The notes beneath the pieces are model-generated. The model saw only the letters and a list, made by a program, of their open reading frames with translations. It was not told the DNA's origin and made no database searches. Both the position numbers and the translations under genes were made by a program. DNA of 41,599 bases from a virus: positions 1-41,599 of IMG/VR virus record IMGVR_UViG_3300042397_002046. One strand, written 5' to 3'. Shown one piece after another: positions 5,448 to 27,598 of the stretch (position 1 is the first letter of the stretch; each line of letters opens with the position of its first letter).

Positions 5448-6053
5448 TCAGGCCATAGACGCCAAAACAGCGGCATATTTCGCCTGGCGATCATCCAGAC
5501 CATGCGTTCCGCCATTGATCCTCTTGGTCATCGCGACCACATCCTTGGAGTCGGCTAGGGCGTTCAAGCCGTTTGTGGACCAGAACCATCCAGCCGACAA
5601 TGCAGCCATCTCTGGCTCGGCCAAAAGCTCTGGGTTTTCGACAGCGTCCACGCCGGTCGCGTCTGAGAATCGCTGATAGTTGTCTTTACCTGTGAGCTGA
5701 ATCAGGCCTTTTCCTCGGTATTTCCATCCATCACCTGACGATTCGTCGCCGTTGCCCATGCGGCTTGAATATGCCTTATTTGCGATTTTTTCAGGATTGC
5801 GAGCGTATTCTTGGCAATTCTCAGCATTGAACCGGCTCGGCCAGACCCGGCAAAGCGCCTCGGCTGAATAGTTGAGGTTCTCGCTTGTGGCTGTAAACCC
5901 AGCTGACTCATGAGCGATTTGAGATAAGAACCCAGCAATGCGCTCAGGGGTATTTATGTCGAATTGTTCGGCTGTGGCGTTCAATGCGTCGAGCCATTTG
6001 TCTGCCATTGCGGGCGTTGTGATGGCGAGTAGATTCTCTTTAGTGATAAGCAT
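5448..6053 (-). CDS. Endolysin, glycoside hydrolase family 19 (chitinase-like muramidase)
   Basis: The 201-aa enzyme should cut peptidoglycan glycan strands at lysis. GH19 features include the catalytic-acid region AGFLSQIAHESAGF (Glu49), ENLNYSAEAL, and the YRGKGLIQLTGKDNYQRF substrate-cleft motif, and the length is typical of single-domain phage GH19 lysins. No signal peptide is visible, so it needs a holin. ATG 6053 is chosen because GGAG lies 7 nt upstream; an extension to 6083 would run into the preceding HNH gene. It is the last gene of the minus-strand late operon, facing attP. Confidence 0.92.
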   Translation of the reverse strand: MLITKENLLAITTPAMADKWLDALNATAEQFDINTPERIAGFLSQIAHESAGFTATSENLNYSAEALCRVWPSRFNAENCQEYARNPEKIANKAYSSRMGNGDESSGDGWKYRGKGLIQLTGKDNYQRFSDATGVDAVENPELLAEPEMAALSAGWFWSTNGLNALADSKDVVAMTKRINGGTHGLDDRQAKYAAVLASMA

Positions 6054-6950: not shown

Positions 6951-7564
6951 TTGGCTTTCACCAACATATCGGCAACGATGGTCAGGATTGAACGAGCGTG
7001 TTCAAGGTCTGGTTCAGCCATCCACCCGGCTGTAATTTGCCCCACGAACTGTTCCTTCGCAGAGGGTGCGCTCACACGACAGGTGTACTGAACGCCTTGG
7101 CTGATGTAGAACAATCCAGCGACCGACTGTGGCCGTGTGTAAGGGCCGCAAGGGACCTCGCCCGCCATCAGCTTGACCACATCTGCGTTATTGCTTGCGA
7201 TGTTTGAGAAGAGCTTGACATCCACACCCTCGAGCGACTTCTGTCGACCGCCGGTCTTTGTATAAGCCCGCACAAGCACTCGTTTATTCAAGATCGGGTC
7301 AACAGTAAATATCGACACGACCTCTGCGCCCGTCTCTTTGAATAGCATCGCTGCGGCATCATCGAAACGGGAGTCATCGAGCTTTGGCAATTCGCGTGAC
7401 TGCATATACGCGCCAATCATCACGCCTTGATGGGTGTAAATGAAGTAGCCAATGAAGCCAAGCACCCCAAGCAAGAGGACAACAATCAACTTAAATGGCG
7501 AGTCGATGTAGCCAAGAACAGCCATCACGCCGTCGCGAGCTTGCGAGGTTTGCTTTTCGTCCAT
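6947..7564 (-). CDS. Single-span membrane protein, T4-type (class III) holin candidate
   Basis: The 205-aa protein has a short charged N-terminus, one membrane segment at about 25-43 (KLIVVLLLGVLGFIGYFIY) and a ~155-aa soluble C-terminal domain that should face the periplasm. The domain holds two cysteines (C139 and C162). Length, topology and the paired Cys resemble the T4 holin T, though I see no clear sequence match. It lies directly before Rz/Rz1 and the endolysin, where no other holin is visible. Alternatives are an antiholin-like or superinfection-related membrane protein. Confidence 0.55.
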   Translation of the reverse strand: MDEKQTSQARDGVMAVLGYIDSPFKLIVVLLLGVLGFIGYFIYTHQGVMIGAYMQSRELPKLDDSRFDDAAAMLFKETGAEVVSIFTVDPILNKRVLVRAYTKTGGRQKSLEGVDVKLFSNIASNNADVVKLMAGEVPCGPYTRPQSVAGLFYISQGVQYTCRVSAPSAKEQFVGQITAGWMAEPDLEHARSILTIVADMLVKAK

Positions 7565-16541: not shown

Positions 16542-17255
16542 TCAGCGTCTCCTCTTAGGCCAGACGATCAAATAAACAATCCCCGGCGATACATTTGGAC
16601 CAACTTTGTATCGTTTTGATACGCCGTTCTTCACATTGAAATCTTTATATAGACCGAGCCTGGCAATCTTTCTGGCCGCGACTTCCATATATCCCATTCG
16701 GGCGTCGACCCTGCCTTTCTTGGTGCTGATCTTCATCGTCACTTTGGACGACTTCCACAGAACCTTCTCGACAACCGTGGCATATGGCACTGAAGTCGGC
16801 ATGAGCATCAAATATTCGCCAGGTCCGAGCAGTGGCGACTCGCTTTCATTAACCGGCGAGAGTTTGCCTTTACGCGCCGAACCCTTACGAAGAAACCAGC
16901 TCCAGCTCCCTGAAGTATCAGAGAGCTTTCCCGTGTTTGCGGTCGTATATTTATTGATTGAGGCAGCCAGCTCAAACTCAGCTGCTCTCATAGCCATCGC
17001 TGTCAGTTGATTGCCAAACAACACCGAAGCTCTATATTTAATATTGTCTATTTTCTTGCCGTCCCGACCGTCAACCGTAAATCTGACAGGGTTGTTGCCG
17101 AGTTTGATTTGCTGGGCAGTTTCCTCAGCGAGGATTGCCTTCATAAAAGCGCGAACGTCGGCGACGCTTGTTGTCTCAATGTCTTGTCGAATAGTCTGCC
17201 GAGAGAGTGTCCCCACTCCCCCAACAGTTACCCGACGGACAGTTGTTTCAGCCAC
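16542..17255 (-). CDS. Hypothetical tail-region protein, 237 aa
   Basis: I do not recognise a family. The C-terminal half is very basic (KSSKVTMKISTKKGRVDARM, KVGPNVSPGIVYLIVWPKRRR), and the middle has an SWSWFLRKGSARKG motif. The GTG start at 17255 overlaps the end of the T-like chaperone gene by 8 nt. Position between the tail chaperones and the tape measure is unusual, since that slot normally holds only the tape measure. It may be a tail assembly or tape-measure accessory factor. Confidence 0.7.
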   Translation of the reverse strand: MAETTVRRVTVGGVGTLSRQTIRQDIETTSVADVRAFMKAILAEETAQQIKLGNNPVRFTVDGRDGKKIDNIKYRASVLFGNQLTAMAMRAAEFELAASINKYTTANTGKLSDTSGSWSWFLRKGSARKGKLSPVNESESPLLGPGEYLMLMPTSVPYATVVEKVLWKSSKVTMKISTKKGRVDARMGYMEVAARKIARLGLYKDFNVKNGVSKRYKVGPNVSPGIVYLIVWPKRRR

Positions 17256-17445
17256 GATGACCCATTACTCCCGCAAGCATCTTTTCAGGAGACGACAAGA
17301 GATTGTTTGAAGAACTCTCATGCTTGTCGTTGAAGAACTCAATCCACTTAAAATATTCCTCGATCGGCATCTTGGCCTTCAACTCATAAACTGGAGTCGA
17401 AAGCCTTTCGGCCAATGCGAAGAGGTTTTTTTCGTGGACGTTCAT
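17248..17445 (-). CDS. Tail assembly chaperone, T-like part (DUF4035-like)
   Basis: The 65-aa frame starts MNVHEKNLFALAERLSTPVYEL and continues AKMPIEEYFKWIEFFNDKHE. This matches the short chaperone domains (DUF4035/gpT type: helical, with an E-x-x-x-W-I-x-F motif) found just before tape measure genes. In lambda this part is made only as a fusion to gpG by -1 frameshifting. The same slip would here give a 145-aa fusion (see 17448-17454). Independent initiation at ATG 17445, which overlaps the G stop, is also possible. Confidence 0.82.
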   Translation of the reverse strand: MNVHEKNLFALAERLSTPVYELKAKMPIEEYFKWIEFFNDKHESSSNNLLSSPEKMLAGVMGHRG

Positions 17446-17684
17446 TCGTTTCCCGAATCGCCCAGACCGTTCTGCTCAACCACAGCAGGGATCAACTTTT
17501 TCATGTAGACCGTGAAAGGGATCTGCTTGACCTCTTCCTCGGTCATTTTCACCCCGTTGCGGGTGACAGAAGCGGCGACCAGCTTCATCTGAAACGTGGC
17601 GCTGTCAGTAGTTGCAAGCCCCAGGATCGGCAGCATATCGCCGACACATACTTGATTAACTTCATACTCATCGATCTTAATCAT
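17442..17684 (-). CDS. Tail assembly chaperone, G-like
   Basis: The 80-aa acidic protein (MIKIDEYEVNQVCVGDMLPI...) sits between the tail tube and the tape measure, where gpG-like chaperones bind the tape measure and hold it for tube polymerisation. It ends GLGDSGNE, and its final codons contain a slippery heptamer. The start ATG 17684 has AAAGGA about 9 nt upstream, and that site can be covered by an RNA pairing from the structured leader. Assignment is by position, size and frameshift signal. Confidence 0.82.
   Translation of the reverse strand: MIKIDEYEVNQVCVGDMLPILGLATTDSATFQMKLVAASVTRNGVKMTEEEVKQIPFTVYMKKLIPAVVEQNGLGDSGNE
17448..17454 (-). promoter_or_regulatory. Programmed -1 frameshift slippery site GGGAAAC
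   Basis: On the minus strand the G-like frame reads TCG GGA AAC GAA TGA. The heptamer G-GGA-AAC fits X-XXY-YYZ in phase. A one-base backward slip moves reading into CGA ATG AAC, the T-like frame, making a fusion of residues 1-79 of G, one Arg and all 65 T residues. Lambda uses GGGAAAG at the same gene junction. Slippage itself is inferred. Confidence 0.82.
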
Positions 17685-17687
17685 GTC

Positions 17688-17779
17688 TCAAGTCCTTTTG
17701 TTGACATAGTCCCGAAATAAGGTGGAGCGGCTCGTCAAGGGGACTAGACTTGACACCAAGGAGTAAGGCTGCCGCTCCA
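17688..17779 (-). promoter_or_regulatory. Structured RNA leader with possible pseudoknot before tail chaperone gene
   Basis: A perfect 9-bp outer stem (17723-17731 with 17771-17779) encloses a 6-bp inner hairpin (17734-17739 with 17749-17754). The inner loop GGGACTA (17740-17746) is complementary to TAGTCCC at 17707-17713, allowing a pseudoknot. An alternative 7-bp pairing joins 17747-17753 with 17688-17694, which covers the ribosome binding site of the G-like gene. The 100-nt gap is exceptional in a region where genes otherwise overlap. I infer translational control of the chaperone relative to the tail tube. Confidence 0.6.
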
Positions 17780-17785
17780 AAGTCG

Positions 17786-18442
17786 TTATGCAAAAACGTG
17801 CTTAGGTGCTGCGCCGAACGTGAACTGGAAGCTGTACTGTTGAGCGCCATCAAGCGGCAAGGTGTAAGACATGCCGCTCAACACAACAGGCATGACCAAG
17901 TATCCGTTGTCGCCAAGCGTGACACGCAAGATGTATTCTTTGCCTGTCTCGATTGCCTCAAGAATCGCCAGGTATCCAGAATCGTTTGTATCAACGTATC
18001 CAACAGCTGCGGCCGTACCGGCCTCGACCTTTGCGCTCGGAATTGAGGAGCTTCCGCAATAAGTCGATGTGTCGATCACAGCTGGTGCTGCTGTGCTGAT
18101 GGTGAACTCAGACAGACAGATGCAATCCATCTCTTCGTCTGCGTAGTGTTCGATCGCGGGTGTGGCAGACAAAGTGCCGTCGCCCAGGATTACGTTGCCG
18201 ATAGAAAACCCAGCGGCCGTGACAGCAGTCACGACAAATGATTTATTGTTAATCGATGCGAAACCGACATCCTTAAACTTGACAACCTCGCCCACTTTTG
18301 GAGAGACTGAGGACTCAACCATCACGCCCTGGGGCTTACCGTCGATGGATGCGATTGAGGTGATTGCTGTTGGGACCAGAGTGTTTGTTGCCACTTCTGG
18401 AGTGAGGCACATACGAACTGCTGCTGTATTCTTAGCCGACAT
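17786..18442 (-). CDS. Major tail tube protein
   Basis: The 218-aa protein is beta-rich with many Ala, Thr, Val and Ser residues. The motifs TAITSIASIDGKPQGVMVESS, PKVGEVVKFKDVGFASINNKS and SGMSYTLPLDGAQQYSFQFTF resemble lambda-type tail tube folds. Position between the tail terminator and the G-like chaperone fixes the role. Hexamer rings of it would form the non-contractile tube. It is the last gene before the structured leader. Confidence 0.85.
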   Translation of the reverse strand: MSAKNTAAVRMCLTPEVATNTLVPTAITSIASIDGKPQGVMVESSVSPKVGEVVKFKDVGFASINNKSFVVTAVTAAGFSIGNVILGDGTLSATPAIEHYADEEMDCICLSEFTISTAAPAVIDTSTYCGSSSIPSAKVEAGTAAAVGYVDTNDSGYLAILEAIETGKEYILRVTLGDNGYLVMPVVLSGMSYTLPLDGAQQYSFQFTFGAAPKHVFA

Positions 18443-18453
18443 GATGTCTGCTC

Positions 18454-18843
18454 CTATAAATTAAATGTGTAAGAAATTAAAAAGCTCACGCCAAACTTAG
18501 GTTCTCCACCAGACGGCGTGAAATCGTCTGGGGCTGCAATCGTGGTGAATGTCATCGCTTCAGATTCAACGGATGACTCAAAGAACTTTCGTGCCGCCGG
18601 CTCTGCTACCTCAAGCAAACCATCGTCGCCCACACCGGCCACACCAAAGAAATCCAGCTGGATTGATCCAACCTCCTGCCAGGTATTGCAATAAGAGAGC
18701 TTGTCCATGCCGTAAGCGGAGAACTCAATCGTGAACCAGATATCCTCAGTCGGATTGGTTTCATAATTGATCGTGTCGACGTAAAGGACATCGAGCTTTG
18801 ATGCCCACTCTCTAGCTAATCTTCGAACGGCTCTGCTCGACAT
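18454..18843 (-). CDS. Tail terminator-like protein
   Basis: The start at ATG 18843 (129 aa) is chosen because AAGGGC lies upstream and it follows the previous stop by one base; a longer frame to 18954 lies inside that gene. The sequence (SRAVRRLAREWASKLDVLYV ... DIWFTIEFSAYG ... FTPSGGEPKFGVSFLISYTF) fits the small alpha/beta terminator fold of gpU/DUF4128 type that caps the tail tube. Assignment is by pattern and location just before the tube gene. Confidence 0.72.
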   Translation of the reverse strand: MSSRAVRRLAREWASKLDVLYVDTINYETNPTEDIWFTIEFSAYGMDKLSYCNTWQEVGSIQLDFFGVAGVGDDGLLEVAEPAARKFFESSVESEAMTFTTIAAPDDFTPSGGEPKFGVSFLISYTFNL

Positions 18844-19749: not shown

Positions 19750-20595
19750 TTAAAGTTTTGTCCAGGGTAGGAGTTGCGCCATTGCGGCCTCGAGAGCTGC
19801 GACACGGGCTTCGAGTGCGGATGTAGACGACGCTGGTACATAAATAAGATTGTCTGTGCCTAGCGTGGCCGTATTTCCGGCATCGGCTGAAACTGCTGTC
19901 GGAGAAGGAGCGCCGTCAGCTCCCGCTGGACCGGTTGGGCCGGCAGGGCCTTGAATTCCGGGAGCGCCGTCAGCACCAGGAGCGCCATCTTTTCCAGCAG
20001 GGCCAGTTTGACCTGTGGCTCCGTCAGCGCCCGCTGGGCCGGCTGGACCAGTTTGACCGGTGGCTCCGTCAGCACCAGCTGGGCCTTGAATTCCGGGCGC
20101 TCCGTCAGCACCAGGAGCGCCGTCTTTTCCAGCAGGGCCAGTTTGACCGGGCGCTCCAACAAGTGACGCCAGCCACTCCTCTTCTGTTCCAGGATAGCCA
20201 TTCGTGACGGCCACCTCAAAGGCGCTAAGGCCTTCGCTGCCCTGCGCTCCATCAGCGCCCGGAGCTCCATCTTTTCCAGCAGCGCCATCGGCACCTGGAT
20301 TTCCATCCACCCCTGGAGCACCATCTTTTCCATCTAAACCCGGAGCGCCCTCAAGCGATGCCAACCACTCGGCCTCTGTGCCGACGAAACCGTTTGCGAC
20401 AGCAACCTCATAGGCCGAAGCGCCAGCAGGGCCGGGGGTGCCACCACCACCGCCCGCTGTAATTTGAATCGATCCGTCTGGGTACTTAATCCCGCCGCCA
20501 GGTGCGAGCATCACATCATCGGGTGCAGCTTCACCCAATGCAGTTACATCAGCGCCTGTGTAGATTGACTTGACGGGTAAAAACTCAGACATCAT
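19750..20595 (-). CDS. Collagen-like structural protein, 281 aa
   Basis: An N-terminal attachment region (about 1-50) is followed by collagen-type G-x-y triplets (about 52-235) interrupted twice by a module ending NGFVGTEAEWLASL / NGYPGTEEEWLASL. A short DNLIYVPASS motif and a C-terminal helix (ALEARVAALEAAMAQL) that could trimerise follow. The gene lies between the connector and other fibre genes, so it may be a head or neck fibre. The GxY repeats are encoded by near-identical DNA repeats (about 19940-20140), so length variation is likely. Confidence 0.82.
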   Translation of the reverse strand: MMSEFLPVKSIYTGADVTALGEAAPDDVMLAPGGGIKYPDGSIQITAGGGGGTPGPAGASAYEVAVANGFVGTEAEWLASLEGAPGLDGKDGAPGVDGNPGADGAAGKDGAPGADGAQGSEGLSAFEVAVTNGYPGTEEEWLASLVGAPGQTGPAGKDGAPGADGAPGIQGPAGADGATGQTGPAGPAGADGATGQTGPAGKDGAPGADGAPGIQGPAGPTGPAGADGAPSPTAVSADAGNTATLGTDNLIYVPASSTSALEARVAALEAAMAQLLPWTKL

Positions 20596-20615
20596 CGCTC
20601 CTTAAATATTCTGTG

Positions 20616-20637
20616 CCTCGCCCATTTCTGAGCGAGG
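20616..20637 (-). promoter_or_regulatory. Hairpin in the gap before the collagen-like gene
   Basis: CCTCGC (20616-20621) pairs with GCGAGG (20632-20637) around a 10-nt loop. No T-run follows on the minus strand, so it is not a clear terminator. It may be an mRNA processing or stability element between two highly expressed structural genes. Confidence 0.4.
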
Positions 20638-20650
20638 ACTTGTTACCTAA

Positions 20651-21505
20651 TTAGGCCAATGGGATTGGCTTGCTTACGCCGTCTGTGTCAAAGAATGGAA
20701 TTGCCTTCAATGACACTTGCTGGATGGCTGCTTGCACATCAGTAGCAGTGATGCCAGTAATAGGTGCAAAGGTTGTCTGCGCGGCTGTGTAGTCACCAGC
20801 TGCTGGGACGACTGCACCAGTGCGAGTGTTAAAGCTCGACACACCACCTGGAGCGACTTCCAAAGCATCCAGACGACCGTCAACAGCGATCAATTCTGCT
20901 TCGACTTGGTCGAGTGCAGCTTGAACGTCTGTGCCTGTCAGGACTGTGTTGCCAGTCGAGTCGTAAGAGGTTCCTGCTGCTGTTGCTGTGCGAGCTGAGT
21001 AGTCCAAATGGATCCACTTGCTCGATGGTCGATGGTAAACAAGCCAATCACCAATCTTGATCTCTTCGCCTGTTGCATCGCCGACTGTGCGGGTGCCTTC
21101 AGTATTAAAGATAAAGTAATGAGTAGGACCGGGCTGCGCTGGTGCTGCTGGATCTGCATCGTCGAAACCGAGCAATCCCATGAACACTAGATCAGCAGCG
21201 TTGGACATGATCAATGTGCCGAGCTGCTCCATGCCTAACTGGACGTTCGTGGCATCAACACCAGCGATGTTCGTTGGGTCAAGAGTGATTTTAAGTGCGT
21301 CGTAATCGCCAGCAACAGCAACGATGGCACCAGTGCGACTAAATACAGAAGCGACGGCTTGTGCGCCAGCTGCGGTGGATTGGACCGTACCGTCGGCGAA
21401 TTTAAGGTCGCCGGTCAATACTGCGACTTCGTCTGGTGTGAACTCGCCGAGACCGACTGGATCGCCGGTGCCATTTTTAATGACTTTTAGTAATAGACTT
21501 TCCAT
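20651..21505 (-). CDS. Virion structural / fibre-like protein, 284 aa
   Basis: Two related segments repeat a fibre motif: SRTGAIVAVAGDYDALKITL (about 56-75) and NTRTGAVVPAAGDYTAAQTTF (about 225-245), each followed by ...NIAGVDATNVQLGMEQL / GITATDVQAAIQQV. This RTG-V-x-AGDY repeat is common in phage fibres and decoration proteins. The N-terminus (GTGDPVGLGEFTPDEVAVL) resembles that of the neighbouring collagen-like protein. The last residues, SKPIPLA, are nearly shared with the next protein (EKPIPLS). Confidence 0.75.
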   Translation of the reverse strand: MESLLLKVIKNGTGDPVGLGEFTPDEVAVLTGDLKFADGTVQSTAAGAQAVASVFSRTGAIVAVAGDYDALKITLDPTNIAGVDATNVQLGMEQLGTLIMSNAADLVFMGLLGFDDADPAAPAQPGPTHYFIFNTEGTRTVGDATGEEIKIGDWLVYHRPSSKWIHLDYSARTATAAGTSYDSTGNTVLTGTDVQAALDQVEAELIAVDGRLDALEVAPGGVSSFNTRTGAVVPAAGDYTAAQTTFAPITGITATDVQAAIQQVSLKAIPFFDTDGVSKPIPLA

Positions 21506-21514
21506 TTAAAACTC

Positions 21515-21829
21515 CTAGGAGAGAGGTATGGGCTTTTCTTCGCCCGTTGTTAAAACAAAATTCAATGTCGCCGTAGATGAAACAGTGACAGCACCGACTC
21601 CAGTTTCTGGAGATACTGCAATGCCCTTACCAGCCAAGATTCTCTCGACTATCGCGTCAGCAGTCCCGTCGCTTCCATTTGTCTTGACCCACTCAGGAGC
21701 CATGTAGATGTAAAGGTTTCCGTCCTCTGGGTTAAACCAAAGATCACCCTTGAGGCTTGGTGGAGGCGGAGGGGCAATGTCGATATAGACAAGTCCATAC
21801 TGGCCGATCACATCTGGGTTAGACATCAC
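21515..21829 (-). CDS. Small virion-associated protein, 104 aa
   Basis: The product carries one copy of a module, PPPPSLKGDLWFNPEDGNLYIYM...EWVKT, that is also found twice in the 603-aa fibre protein. The C-terminal half (AGKGIAVSPETGVGAVTVSSTA) is beta-rich and ends KPIPLS, nearly the same as the end of the 284-aa neighbour. It is probably a decoration or adaptor subunit of the fibre apparatus. Function is inferred from shared modules and place. Confidence 0.65.
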   Translation of the reverse strand: MMSNPDVIGQYGLVYIDIAPPPPPSLKGDLWFNPEDGNLYIYMAPEWVKTNGSDGTADAIVERILAGKGIAVSPETGVGAVTVSSTATLNFVLTTGEEKPIPLS

Positions 21830-21853
21830 ACACCTTCAATAGAAATTGTTTGC

Positions 21854-22255
21854 TCATGGCCAGGTTGATTTCACGACGATGTCGGCAGACACTTTGACGC
21901 CCTGCTGATTGGCGTTGCCAGCCATATCCATACACGTTGGATACTTGTATCCTGTGTATTTGTATGTGTGGACATGAACCTTCTCGCCGTATGCGTTCGT
22001 CTCAGTCGCCCCACCATCACCATCGAAGTCGTAGAAATATGTTCCGCTGCCACCCCATGCAGTGAACTCAATCTGCGAGGGACCAATCTGTCGCCAGCGC
22101 AATTCAGTCAACACTTCTGGCTCTGCGCCACTTGGCAATTCTTTCCACACTCCACCCACGTTGACCTTCACGGAGGCGACATCTTTCCAGCCGCCTGGCG
22201 TGTTGATCTTTTTCGGCGTTGCGTCAGCCCAGCCAGATGGTGTGTTTACCTTCAT
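21854..22255 (-). CDS. Small virion-associated protein with PKD-like fold, 133 aa
   Basis: The N-terminal 40 residues contain three short repeats (NTPSGWADATPKKI, NTPGGWKDVASVKV, NVGGVWKELPSG). The rest (FTAWGGSGTYFYDFDGDGGA ... VHVHTYKYTGYK) looks like a PKD/Ig-type beta domain. Such domains occur on capsid and fibre surfaces and often bind carbohydrate. The start overlaps the stop of the 735-aa fibre gene, suggesting a common complex. Confidence 0.68.
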   Translation of the reverse strand: MKVNTPSGWADATPKKINTPGGWKDVASVKVNVGGVWKELPSGAEPEVLTELRWRQIGPSQIEFTAWGGSGTYFYDFDGDGGATETNAYGEKVHVHTYKYTGYKYPTCMDMAGNANQQGVKVSADIVVKSTWP

Positions 22256-24459
22256 GCCGAATATTCCACGAGCAGAGTGTTGTTCGGGTAGAGTGCTGCG
22301 TCGGGCGCAGTGCCTCCTGCTGGCATTGAGACGATTGTTGGCTTGTTGTCGACGTATTGTTTCGGTGCTGCCTCAAGAGCATTAACTGGGTCTGCTGGCA
22401 ATTCGATTGGGACTAATGACTTGTGCTTAGTGCTGTCGAATGTCCAGCGTTGCTGCCCACCGGCATATACGCCGATGCCAGTGCCGACCTTGGACATATA
22501 CGCACCGCTAGAACCAAACTCGACTCCGATACCAGTTCCGGGAGTCGTAATCTTTTGCGTGAATGACGCACCGGTAGCCGTGAAGTTGACAATATTGGCG
22601 TTTCCGTAGCGAACTGCGACGCCACCGTTAGCACCAAAAATGTTGTAGGTAGATGTACCCCAAGTCAAAGACTGTACGGTCGTGGGCAGCGTAATGCCGC
22701 CAGTCATCGTGCCGCCAGTTGTCTTTAGATAAGCGGTCGAGCTGCTAACCGCTGAGTCAACATAAGACTTGTTCGTGAGGTCAGAGCCGTCCACAGGCGC
22801 AAAAGTGCATTTCGGCGCAATGCTAAATGTCACCTTGCCCGTAGCAATTTCAATCATGTAGCCAGACTTCGACCCGGGCAATTGAACACGGAAATATGTG
22901 CCGTCGTAGTATGTGTAGACATCTTGACCGTTGAAAGAGCTTACGCCTCCTGAGTTAGCGTAGCGCAGCGGTCCGTTCATTACGTCGCCAGATTTGTTGA
23001 CGTAGTTTGTCGATGCCGTTGTCGAGATGGTGCCGTCAGCTGTGACAGACATCCCTGTGCCAATTTTCACACCGCCGAGAACAGTTGCCGAGGCGGTCGG
23101 TAACGTGTACGCGACACCACCAGCCGCAACCTTGTCGTCAACATACTTCTTATTTGCAGCCATTGCGTCTGTCGTGGGCGCAGCAGCTGGCAAAGTAAAA
23201 GGAACTTTTGAAGTGATACCCGTGTCAGAAATGTCGAGAAAATCAGTCGTCGCACGACCGTACTGAATACGATCGAGAAATGACTTGACCCAGTATGTAG
23301 GCGCAACAGAACCAAACCGCTGCACCATTTCACCAGCGGCGGATGCTGGCATCGTAATCATGCCAGTCATCGTGCCGCCAGCCAGCGGCAGGTAGCCAGT
23401 CAAATTGGTGGCTGGTGTAAAGATTTTGCCGTCTGTGCCGAGTTTGGAAATGTTCCCGGCATCGCTTGATGTCTCCGTCGGGCCAGCAGGACCTATCAAT
23501 GAATCGAGCCACTCTTGCTCTGTGCCTGTGAATCCATTGGCCACTGCGACCTGGTAAGCCGACAGGCCAGTTGCTCCAGGTTGACCGTCGGCTCCAACAA
23601 CCGGACCCGCATCATCAAACTTTGCAGGATCAACCGTTGTGTTCCAAACGTAAGCGACTCCAGTGTCATCGGCCACATATACGTCGCCGTGAATCTGGCC
23701 TGTCAATGCGCTCAAATCTGCGGATGTTGCCACTCGGCCAGCATATCGAAGTCCCAAGCCCTGTGGACCCTGCTCGCCCGCAAGTGATGCCAACCACTCG
23801 GCTTCAGTGCCGATGAAGCCTTCCTGCAAAGCAACCTGATAGGCGGAGGCGCCGTCAGCGCCGGTTTCTCCGGCCGCGCCATCCTGGCCAACCAAGCGAC
23901 CCATAGGTTCCCATGCGGTCACGACGTTCGGGTCATCAATCGCAAGCGCGAAATAACCTTCGCCTGTATCGTTCGTGATGTAGAACTGACCGCCCTTGGC
24001 TCCAGGAGTGAGGGCTTCTAACTCTGTGTAGTTATTGATGCGGCCCATGTAGCGTGTGCTGATGCCATCTTGGCCATCAACACCGTTGACACCGTCGGTG
24101 CCATCTTCTCCGACCAATCGACCGAGAAAAAGCCAGCCCTTTCCGTTTGGGTTCTGGTGGACCGGCACGACTTGATAGCCCATGCCTGTGTCGTTTGTGA
24201 TGTAAAAAGAATACAGGTCTGCAAGGTCAATCACACTAGCAAGGTCTGCCTCTGTCTCAACACGGCCACCGTATTTGAACCCGATAGGACCGACTGGACC
24301 TTCAGGGCCAGGTTCGCCCTGCTCTCCCTGAGGACCAGGAACACCAGCGGCCGCAGAAATTACGTTCCAGCTCATGCCGTCAAATTGATACTGCACACCA
24401 TTAGGTGCGTCGTAGATGTCGCCAGCGGCTGGGGTATCGGGAAACTCTAAGGCTGCCAT
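22252..24459 (-). CDS. Large collagen-like fibre protein, 735 aa
   Basis: The N-terminal DAPNGVQYQFDGMSWNVI region is followed by short collagen triplets and three ~70-residue repeats with the pattern Y-x-GR-[VI]...DL...DTG-x-[GA]Y (KYGGRVETEADL, RYMGRINNYTEL, RYAGRVATSADL). Two GTE-x-EWL-x-SL modules lie between them. The C-terminal half has several GGTMTGxITMP-type fibre motifs and repeated NKKYVD / NKSYVD / PKQYVD segments that occur in trimeric fibres. It is probably a long surface fibre of the head or neck. Confidence 0.85.
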   Translation of the reverse strand: MAALEFPDTPAAGDIYDAPNGVQYQFDGMSWNVISAAAGVPGPQGEQGEPGPEGPVGPIGFKYGGRVETEADLASVIDLADLYSFYITNDTGMGYQVVPVHQNPNGKGWLFLGRLVGEDGTDGVNGVDGQDGISTRYMGRINNYTELEALTPGAKGGQFYITNDTGEGYFALAIDDPNVVTAWEPMGRLVGQDGAAGETGADGASAYQVALQEGFIGTEAEWLASLAGEQGPQGLGLRYAGRVATSADLSALTGQIHGDVYVADDTGVAYVWNTTVDPAKFDDAGPVVGADGQPGATGLSAYQVAVANGFTGTEQEWLDSLIGPAGPTETSSDAGNISKLGTDGKIFTPATNLTGYLPLAGGTMTGMITMPASAAGEMVQRFGSVAPTYWVKSFLDRIQYGRATTDFLDISDTGITSKVPFTLPAAAPTTDAMAANKKYVDDKVAAGGVAYTLPTASATVLGGVKIGTGMSVTADGTISTTASTNYVNKSGDVMNGPLRYANSGGVSSFNGQDVYTYYDGTYFRVQLPGSKSGYMIEIATGKVTFSIAPKCTFAPVDGSDLTNKSYVDSAVSSSTAYLKTTGGTMTGGITLPTTVQSLTWGTSTYNIFGANGGVAVRYGNANIVNFTATGASFTQKITTPGTGIGVEFGSSGAYMSKVGTGIGVYAGGQQRWTFDSTKHKSLVPIELPADPVNALEAAPKQYVDNKPTIVSMPAGGTAPDAALYPNNTLLVEYSA

Positions 24460-24471
24460 GATGATCTGTCC

Positions 24472-26283
24472 TTACTTTTGAATGAGTGCAACGAGATCAG
24501 CGACCTGCTTTTTCAGGTCTGCGATTTCGTTCTGGAGTTTTGTGATTTCGGGGGCCGCGCCGATGCTAACAATCTCGACCCACTGGCCGCCTGTTGAATC
24601 TAGGTAGTACACAAACATGGACGCTGTGCTTGAATTGAACCAGAGCTGGTTCTTTGTCGGATCTGCGGGAGGTGTCTCGCTCGCGAACATTGTGGCCGCA
24701 CCAGGTGCGCTTGTCGTCTGCACCCACTGGATGCTCGAGCCATCGTTGTACAAAACGTAGAGGCCGCCGTTACCAGTATTGAACCAGAGCGAATTCTCTT
24801 CAGCATCAACCGGCGGGACATCCGACACGGTCACGCTCGATGATGTTGACTTTGGGACATAGATCAGCCCATCGTTGGCAGAGATAACCGCAGCGTTATC
24901 AGTATCGCTCGAAACCAACGAAGGACCTGGAGCGCCGTCAGCACCTTGAAGCGAGTCGATCCATTCTTGCTCAGTTCCGACGAAGCCTTGCTCGACTGCG
25001 ATCTTATATGCCGAAGCCCCATCAGCGCCATTTTTCCCAGGAGGCCCCATCGGGCCGCGAGGCCCAGTTGGCCCCGGAGTACCATCACCGCCACCACCAG
25101 ATCCGCCAACACTCCCGGCGATCATCTGCACCCAGGCAGCTGATTTGCCACTGGGGAAATCTGTGGTGCGATCAATGGCCAGCCAGAGCGAATTGTCCAT
25201 GCGAACAATCTCGCCGGCCAAATATGTCTGGGTCCCGTCGTAATAACCTCGGAATGACTTGACGGCTGCGCCATCGAAATCATCGTTAAGATCTGGCAGC
25301 GCAAGCTCAATCGTGTGAACTCGGCCGTCCGTCATCTCAAACAGAATATTGGCGTCTGATGCAAATATGTCCTTGATGCCAACACCAGGAGCGCCCTGGT
25401 CGCCGGCAACACCGGCCTCACCCTGGTCGCCCTTCTCTGTGAAAACGAACATTTGCCACTGCTTGTCGCCTTCGTCAGCGACCTTGATCAGCGTCTTACG
25501 ATCCTTGATCACAATATCGTTGATTGAATACTCGACCTCTTTCTTGAATGTGCCACGAAAGATCGGCGAGTGATTCTCGATTGTGTGATCAATCACCAAG
25601 CCATCGGAAAGCGCGACACGCATCGCAGTTTTGCGAAGCTCTGTCTGCTCAAACGAAATGTCGTCGATGCCATTTACGATGCAGTTGTAACCAGCAGGGT
25701 CGTCAACAGGTGAACCGTTTGCCTTACGGCTGGTCATAAACAAACCGCCGCCATGTGCGACTAGGGTGTTCTTATCCACCTTGTCGCCATCACGAACCAG
25801 CATTGGCTCAATAATTGGACGATCACGGCCAGGCTCACCATCGCGGCCGTCCTGACCGTTTTGGCCATCTAAACCCTTCTGGCCATCTAGACCGTCGCGA
25901 ACGTCTTTGATCTGCGAGAGACGCTCATCAACAATTGACTTTAGCGCGTCGAAGTGCGTCTGGACGTCAGCCTTTACTTGGAGCGAAAGCTCTTCAGTTT
26001 TTCCTTGGCGCAGTTCCAGATCGACAATAGTTTTTGCATAATCATTGATTGCCTCACGGGTAAAGACTAAGTTTTCTTCGCTGCTGCTTTTAACAACTCG
26101 CAGCATCTCAACCGCGAGATCAGATTGAGACTCTGTTGCTTTTGCCTCAACCTCGATGAGCTTGGCCTGAATTGCTGAAAGCTCGCCGGCATTCTTTTCG
26201 ATTGCTTTATTTAATGAGTCCCGAGTCTCAGAGAGAACCTCTGCGACTGCTTCAATTATTGGTAAATTTTTAGACTCAAGCAT
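24472..26283 (-). CDS. Collagen-like fibre protein with N-terminal coiled coil, 603 aa
   Basis: ATG 26283 is used; an upstream TTG at 26298 is weaker. Residues 1-130 form a long coiled coil. A collagen block (GLDGQKGLDGQNGQDGRDGE) follows, then a globular region (about 160-310) and more GxY triplets. Next come one GTEQEWIDSL module, two LWFN...QWV modules, and a second coiled coil at the C-terminus (EITKLQNEIADLKKQVADLV). It overlaps the portal gene by 8 nt, which suggests attachment at the portal vertex or capsid. Role inferred. Confidence 0.82.
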   Translation of the reverse strand: MLESKNLPIIEAVAEVLSETRDSLNKAIEKNAGELSAIQAKLIEVEAKATESQSDLAVEMLRVVKSSSEENLVFTREAINDYAKTIVDLELRQGKTEELSLQVKADVQTHFDALKSIVDERLSQIKDVRDGLDGQKGLDGQNGQDGRDGEPGRDRPIIEPMLVRDGDKVDKNTLVAHGGGLFMTSRKANGSPVDDPAGYNCIVNGIDDISFEQTELRKTAMRVALSDGLVIDHTIENHSPIFRGTFKKEVEYSINDIVIKDRKTLIKVADEGDKQWQMFVFTEKGDQGEAGVAGDQGAPGVGIKDIFASDANILFEMTDGRVHTIELALPDLNDDFDGAAVKSFRGYYDGTQTYLAGEIVRMDNSLWLAIDRTTDFPSGKSAAWVQMIAGSVGGSGGGGDGTPGPTGPRGPMGPPGKNGADGASAYKIAVEQGFVGTEQEWIDSLQGADGAPGPSLVSSDTDNAAVISANDGLIYVPKSTSSSVTVSDVPPVDAEENSLWFNTGNGGLYVLYNDGSSIQWVQTTSAPGAATMFASETPPADPTKNQLWFNSSTASMFVYYLDSTGGQWVEIVSIGAAPEITKLQNEIADLKKQVADLVALIQK

Positions 26284-27598
26284 GGTGCATTTTTCCAATC
26301 AATATGGATTTAATCAGCGCCTTCTCTGCCGCCGGATCTTGATCCTCTTCTGGCTCTGGTGGCTCGACAGCTGGTGCCGGGGGCGCTATTGGTGCAACAG
26401 GCTCGGGCGTCTCGCCGACCTGGATCATCTGCTGCTGCAAATATGGTTTATCGCCGCCCTCGACAGGAGGTAAACCCTCGATGCGTCGTGCCTCATTAGG
26501 TGAGTAAATCCCACGCTGTACGGCCTGGCCGAGTGTGTCGACTCGATCCTTCATGTTCGTGCGAAGGAGAATCTTTTCGTCTAGGTTGATTGACTCGTCA
26601 GCATCTAACTCAAAGAAATTCTCAAGAGAAGTCTCAATCAGTTTGATTGTGTGGCCGAGGTCTGTGGCCAGCCAATGGCTGATCAGCTGCTCTGTGTTGT
26701 TATAGGTCGAATTACCCATTGAGTTGACCAGGGCGAGAGGTACACCGAAAACGCTGGTGATTGCCTCGACCGTCATCTGGTAAGCCTGGATCATCTGCGC
26801 GTCTTGGCTCGACATCGAAATCTGTTGCCACTTCAGGCCACTCGCGAGAATTGGTGTCTGGCCAGATGAGAACCCGGCTGACTGTTGATTCCAGACTTCT
26901 CGCAGTCTTGAGATCTGCTCTTTCGTCAAATCCTTATCAGTGCTAATCACGCCAGATGGCCGGCCTTGATTCGTAAAGAAATTAGCCGACCCAGCTGTGA
27001 TCGCATTGTTTGTCGTAACCGGCGCGAACACCGATTCGATAGGCGATACACCACGCAAAGGATCGTCAGGTGTTGCGAGTTTGATGTGCAACATATCCCG
27101 CGCTGGGACAAAGTATTCTGGATCAAAATTCTCGTATGTGAAACGAGTGTCACTCAGCGAATACACTACGCCGCCATCATCTGGCAGCCGGTAAGCGTGG
27201 ACCATCTCTGGCCGCATCAGCCACATTTCGACCACTTCGGTTCTGTTGTTACGTCTGGCCACAGCGAAAGCGTTGCCGTTATAAAACAGGCTGCGAACTA
27301 GGTTTGATAAGAACTCAACCTGGTTCATCAGCGGATTGGGCTTGCGTAAGGTTCTCAGAGCCGCGCTGTTTTTGACAGGCACTCGCGCACCATCTTCCTT
27401 CGTTCTGAAATGTTCAATCGGCATTGAGCTGATTGATGCAGCATAGCGACGGACACAGGCTTCCACGACAGCATTGTTGCCGCCCTGCAAAGGCTTACGT
27501 CCCGCTTGCCACCACTCTTGCCCCCAGGACTGATTTAAGACGCCGACATCCATCGTGTTGACGAGTGACTTGCGCTTAAATAGGTCGAGGAGTTTCAT
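26276..27598 (-). CDS. Portal protein, HK97 family
   Basis: The 440-aa protein has the HK97-type portal sequence: VEACVRRYAASISSMPIEHF, GNAFAVARRNNRTEVVEMWL, MLHIKLATPDDPLRGVSPIE and VEAITSVFGVPLALVN. The C-terminal tail is Pro/Glu-rich (about 385-420). Twelve subunits form the DNA gate to which terminase and connector bind. The gene follows capsid and an 80-aa gene rather than preceding the protease, a reversed order compared with HK97. Confidence 0.95.
   Translation of the reverse strand: MKLLDLFKRKSLVNTMDVGVLNQSWGQEWWQAGRKPLQGGNNAVVEACVRRYAASISSMPIEHFRTKEDGARVPVKNSAALRTLRKPNPLMNQVEFLSNLVRSLFYNGNAFAVARRNNRTEVVEMWLMRPEMVHAYRLPDDGGVVYSLSDTRFTYENFDPEYFVPARDMLHIKLATPDDPLRGVSPIESVFAPVTTNNAITAGSANFFTNQGRPSGVISTDKDLTKEQISRLREVWNQQSAGFSSGQTPILASGLKWQQISMSSQDAQMIQAYQMTVEAITSVFGVPLALVNSMGNSTYNNTEQLISHWLATDLGHTIKLIETSLENFFELDADESINLDEKILLRTNMKDRVDTLGQAVQRGIYSPNEARRIEGLPPVEGGDKPYLQQQMIQVGETPEPVAPIAPPAPAVEPPEPEEDQDPAAEKALIKSILIGKMHHA

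Follow-up and report, generated by a model that had tools for sequence, protein, structure and literature searches.

A 77-nt tract between the tail-tube-like gene and the G-like tail-assembly chaperone gene of a temperate phage (17779 to 17703 on the minus strand of the window, the whole 41,599-nt stretch of viral DNA analysed here) is likely to be a genuine RNA control element, because it has hardly changed in a distant relative despite heavy divergence of the genes on either side. The tract can form a pseudoknot enclosed by a long outer helix, and a small hairpin carrying the ribosome-binding site of the chaperone gene could follow directly after it. We tentatively read the whole as a cis-acting structured RNA in the late mRNA, providing the G/GT chaperone cistron with its translation-initiation region, and would put the probability of this reading at roughly 45%.

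Gene order and fold of the leader

The window derives from a temperate siphophage-like phage, in which integrase, portal, capsid, TerL, tape-measure and J-like genes were recognised. The tail genes lie on the minus strand, which is thus the coding strand for the leader, and RNA of the plus strand is irrelevant here. The tail-tube-like gene (17786..18442, minus strand; 218 aa, stop codon TAA at 17788-17786) has a weak match to the PHROG 584 major tail protein (E=0.0017) and was also called by its position, just upstream of the G/T chaperone pair and the tape-measure gene; the predicted structure of its protein has a mean pLDDT of 32. It is followed by a non-coding gap of 101 nt (17785-17685) and then by the G-like chaperone gene (17442..17684, minus strand; 80 aa), identified by its position and by an in-frame slippery heptamer near its 3′ end. 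This heptamer, G_GGA_AAC (17454-17448, minus strand), is of the canonical −1 type, and the predicted shift would join the G-like gene to a T-like −1 frame extension (17248..17445, minus strand; 65 aa; weak match to the PHROG 337 tail protein, E=0.0095) in a continuous GT product, which is the layout of a lambda-type chaperone pair. The diverged relative has the same local sequence around the heptamer, TCGGGAAACGAATGAACG. In the window, the pair is followed by a gene of 237 aa and, after it, the tape measure. Elsewhere in the window (19750-26298), collagen-like and other fibre-like genes occupy an unusual location between the portal and head-tail connector genes.

Three of the pairings named in an earlier, sequence-only reading of the gap (a 9-bp P1, a 6-bp P2 and a 7-bp helix between the P2 loop and a downstream strand) are all present on the minus strand, and all are perfect Watson-Crick helices. 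The 5′ strand of P1, TGGAGCGGC (17771..17779), begins 6 nt past the tube stop codon and pairs over its full 9 bp with GCCGCTCCA (17723..17731), at a stacking sum of −22 kcal/mol. An unpaired 16-nt segment, AGCCTTACTCCTTGGT (17755..17770), leads from P1 into P2 and is identical in both alleles of the leader described below; the other IMG/VR occurrences of a 15-mer of this segment are all in unrelated contexts. In P2 (S1), GTCAAG (17749..17754) pairs with CTTGAC (17734..17739) around a 9-nt loop, TCTAGTCCC, in which the dinucleotide TC (17747..17748), loop 1 of an H-type pseudoknot, precedes the strand TAGTCCC (17740..17746). The partner of this last strand, GGGACTA (17707..17713), lies downstream of P1 behind a 9-nt linker, CCTTATTTC (17714..17722). 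The resulting geometry is standard for an H-type pseudoknot and the same in both alleles (S1 6 bp, L1 2, S2 7 bp, L2 0, L3 20 nt), with nine of the 20 nt in L3 paired to the upstream strand as P1. At the sequence level this is an H-type leader, having a hairpin loop that pairs with a downstream strand, a short loop 1 and coaxial stems. The pairings are directly established, and we infer from them that the RNA folds in this way.

In 20,000 dinucleotide-shuffled versions of the gap, the observed stacking sum for this set of helices was never reached, and only 15 of them held any such topology; the gap was also the best place for the set on both strands of the window. A search of 815 kb of other phage and viral DNA (both strands summed) returned 72 looser examples and six scoring equally well, mostly in GC-rich phages, which means that the shuffle statistic alone is no proof of function. 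Nested folding of the gap is unexceptional (z = −1.17). Four other phages that share this gene order lack a strong pseudoknot in their tube/chaperone gap, and a covariance model of the element detected no second or distant copy in the 424 kb scanned.

Directly after the pseudoknot, a further hairpin that the sequence-only reading did not contain, P3 (17683..17707, minus strand), is predicted from ATGTC/GACAT and CAA/TTG. Its loop is the Shine-Dalgarno region of the chaperone gene, AAGGAC (17692..17697, minus strand), with an unpaired probability of at least 0.92 in both alleles, and its 3′ strand contains the start codon; A17707 is common to P3 and the last pair of the pseudoknot. P3 is the minimum free energy structure in both alleles, and it is weak (−4.9 kcal/mol in each; shuffle p 0.09 and 0.03). 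The stretch between the pseudoknot and the ATG is the only variable part of the leader, yet P3 is kept there: C-G at the inner closing position of one allele corresponds to U-A in the other, a directly observed compensatory change that is suggestive support for the hairpin, short of proof. A leader ATG in the same stretch opens an 8-codon open reading frame (17707-17681, minus strand) whose stop codon TGA overlaps the chaperone start as ATGA. A 2-nt deletion in the second allele sets this leader ATG in the chaperone frame, where it could give a 7-residue N-terminal extension.

Constraint on the leader in a diverged relative

A single diverged relative, represented by the records G001 and G002 (loci L002 and L003), provides the second allele of the leader, whereas a third record (G003, locus L001) is identical to the window at the leader and adds no allele. 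Searches of viral and genome contigs with the tube, G, T, tape-measure, portal and J proteins and with three DNA patterns of the leader returned only these two alleles; chance 15-mer and 16-mer matches elsewhere were inspected and were without such an element. Within the 77 nt, the second allele differs from the window at 2 positions, one in the outermost P1 pair and the other a linker base at 17717. The conserved tract (17778-17703) coincides almost exactly with the ends of the element, and its flanks diverge at once on both sides. Over the last 61 tube codons and the first 40 chaperone codons, 25 of 43 fourfold-degenerate sites differ (58%), as do 135 of 273 across four local genes; of these 273 sites, no more than 9 in a row are unchanged in the flanking genes. 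Two changes against 58% of neighbouring fourfold sites indicate that the tract is not drifting neutrally. This strong constraint is directly established, and it lends support to the pseudoknot-capable element of the earlier reading, which sits directly before the chaperone ribosome-binding site and is far more constrained than its flanks.

All 7 pseudoknot pairs, all 6 of P2 and 8 of the 9 of P1 are kept in the second allele, the outermost U-A of P1 being the one lost. The pseudoknot is without covariation because its pairs never vary between the two alleles, and a shuffle control on covariation was not significant (194/500, three distinct rows). Conservation is equal at unpaired and paired positions, a pattern that would also fit a sequence-specific or DNA-level constraint. 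Coding was rejected as the cause of conservation: the two forward frames without a stop across the gap in either allele carry 0 synonymous and 4 non-synonymous codon changes, and the antisense open reading frame over the leader has a stop codon in the second allele.

The phage group is mosaic. Comparison of the window with G001 yielded about 40 patches in which at least 73 of 75 positions are identical. Those at 986-1135, 5458-5567 and 7284-7438 are near-identical within diverged regions and are signs of recent mosaic exchange. A second short near-identical tract (18408-18492; 73/75) covers the tail-tube ribosome-binding site and gene start, between flanks that are about 87% identical. On a contig of G003 (locus L068), tube and leader are identical to those of the window and portal and tape measure are each 82% identical, indicating module shuffling in the phage group.

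Competing explanations

Differential mRNA stability is a usual means of setting ratios in operons, and the topology of the leader, in which a helix encloses a hairpin with a downstream-pairing loop, resembles that of exonuclease-resistant RNAs. P1 and the pseudoknot could accordingly be a processing or stability element at the 3′ end of the tube message that blocks or directs ribonucleases, so that the tube mRNA would outlive the chaperone mRNA and any effect on the chaperone would be indirect. The position of the structure, only 6 nt past the tube stop codon, and the stability of P1 suit this explanation. The conserved part, however, reaches the chaperone ribosome-binding hairpin, needless for a stabiliser of the tube mRNA, and we regard the explanation as unlikely. 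Slightly less probable in our view is a cause at the DNA level, either a tract recently exchanged between phages or a conserved recombination sequence at a module boundary, with the complementarities incidental. Conserved boundary sequences have been proposed as sites of junction recombination in phages (PMC3029335), and some of the near-identical patches between the two mosaic genomes do lie within diverged coding sequence, such as that at 986-1135. However, such patches are longer (100-240 nt) than the 77-nt leader tract, which moreover coincides with the element; this favours constraint and leaves exchange as a lesser possibility. A DNA-level cause also leaves the perfect interlocking helices unexplained.

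The on/off switch originally proposed for the gap, in which TCAAGTC alternates between P2 and a helix hiding the Shine-Dalgarno sequence, appears very improbable. Its 7-bp complementarity, TCAAGTC/GACTTGA, does exist in the window, but the fold containing it lies about 8 kcal/mol above the best nested one (−25.4 versus −33.7), and in the second allele it has shrunk to 5 bp (GACTTAC) although the rest of the element is kept. Being both energetically disfavoured and lost in the relative, the hiding helix lends the switch no support. At the lowest probability of all we place a recoding stimulator, in which the structure after the stop codon would promote frameshifting or readthrough and yield a tube protein with a C-terminal extension, in the manner of the Listeria phages A118, A500 and PSA. 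Frameshifting of the +1 type is known in major tail protein genes (PMC5009743), and both the start of the structure 6 nt past the stop and the two frames open across the gap in both alleles would suit it. Nevertheless, a slippery sequence is absent near CAC GTT TTT GCA TAA, frame-0 readthrough would end at a TAG after 13 codons, and the absence of synonymous beside four non-synonymous changes is contrary to coding constraint. A promoter or intrinsic terminator was rejected as the role of the leader, no promoter- or terminator-like site and no GC-rich hairpin with a U run being found in 17200-18500.

Proposed role and related systems

In the reading that we prefer, a structured translation-initiation region of the chaperone cistron, both an action on translation and its direction are inferred. 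Tail assembly requires tube protein in quantity, and G and GT at low, fixed levels. A stable core, consisting of the outer 9-bp P1 around an H-type pseudoknot (P2 and the 7-bp helix), would shield the start of the chaperone gene from ribosomes coming to the end of the heavily translated tail-tube gene. Directly after the core, P3 would expose the Shine-Dalgarno sequence in its loop and, by partially pairing the start codon, limit initiation, so that the chaperone would be made at a low, fixed rate, uncoupled from the abundant synthesis of tube. A phage or ribosomal protein recognising the pseudoknot could add regulation, the ligand being a guess. It is plausible, as the earlier reading had it, that the leader could set the tube:chaperone ratio. 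To our knowledge, RNA-level control at the tube/chaperone junction consists of the frameshift at the end of G, and we know of no other.

The leader is best seen as a putative member of the translational leader pseudoknot type. At the family level the earlier statement that no such element has been described can be upheld: we found no published description of it, and no Rfam 15 family reached the gathering threshold in the window or E<=5 in 17600-17850. In the phage collection, neither the tube protein nor the leader nor the DNA around it had a match, and the G protein gave only insignificant matches (E of at least 3). The statement is too broad at the level of type, since leader pseudoknots governing initiation are known from T4 gene 32 (PMC3014915) and rpsO (PMC10931766), in both of which a protein ligand binds. 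The T4 gene 32 leader shares with ours an H-type pseudoknot with coaxial stems, located in a phage mRNA upstream of the ribosome-binding site (PMC3014915). There, the DNA-binding protein binds its own leader via an AU-rich run-in and the pseudoknot lies 67 nt upstream, whereas the present leader has an additional outer 9-bp helix and a ribosome-binding hairpin immediately adjoining the pseudoknot, and precedes a tail-chaperone gene. An autogenous operator of the gene 32 type was rejected, given the G-like chaperone as downstream gene, a short linker without UUAA(A) repeats and no AU-rich run-in. The mycobacterial type of rpsO (uS15) leader likewise has a pseudoknot upstream of the initiation site, which in rpsO controls initiation (PMC10931766); this type, which is defined by a U-G/C-G motif, differs in its gene and ribosomal-protein ligand and has no sequence relation to the present leader. 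The SAM/SAH riboswitch is also a small H-type pseudoknot with a stem coaxial with the pseudoknot helix (PMC7367207), but its Shine-Dalgarno sequence is inside the pseudoknot helix, while here it lies downstream in P3, and there is no Rfam match.

An undescribed class of leader RNA, in which a three-helix pseudoknot core and a start-codon hairpin would fix chaperone dosage, possibly through tail-protein binding as an assembly-sensing translational feedback, is a speculative and rather unlikely extension of the preferred reading. Translational-control pseudoknots have rarely been documented in phage mRNA, and a 2010 review considered gene 32 as possibly the sole viral autoregulatory pseudoknot (PMC3014915). 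In lambda, where the same genes have the same need for a fixed ratio, −1 frameshifting close to the end of G determines that ratio (PMC5009743). Lambda control sits at the 3′ end of G, whereas the present leader precedes G and its effect would be on initiation. If the preferred reading is true, the conserved, structured leader ahead of G would add a second point of control to the frameshift.
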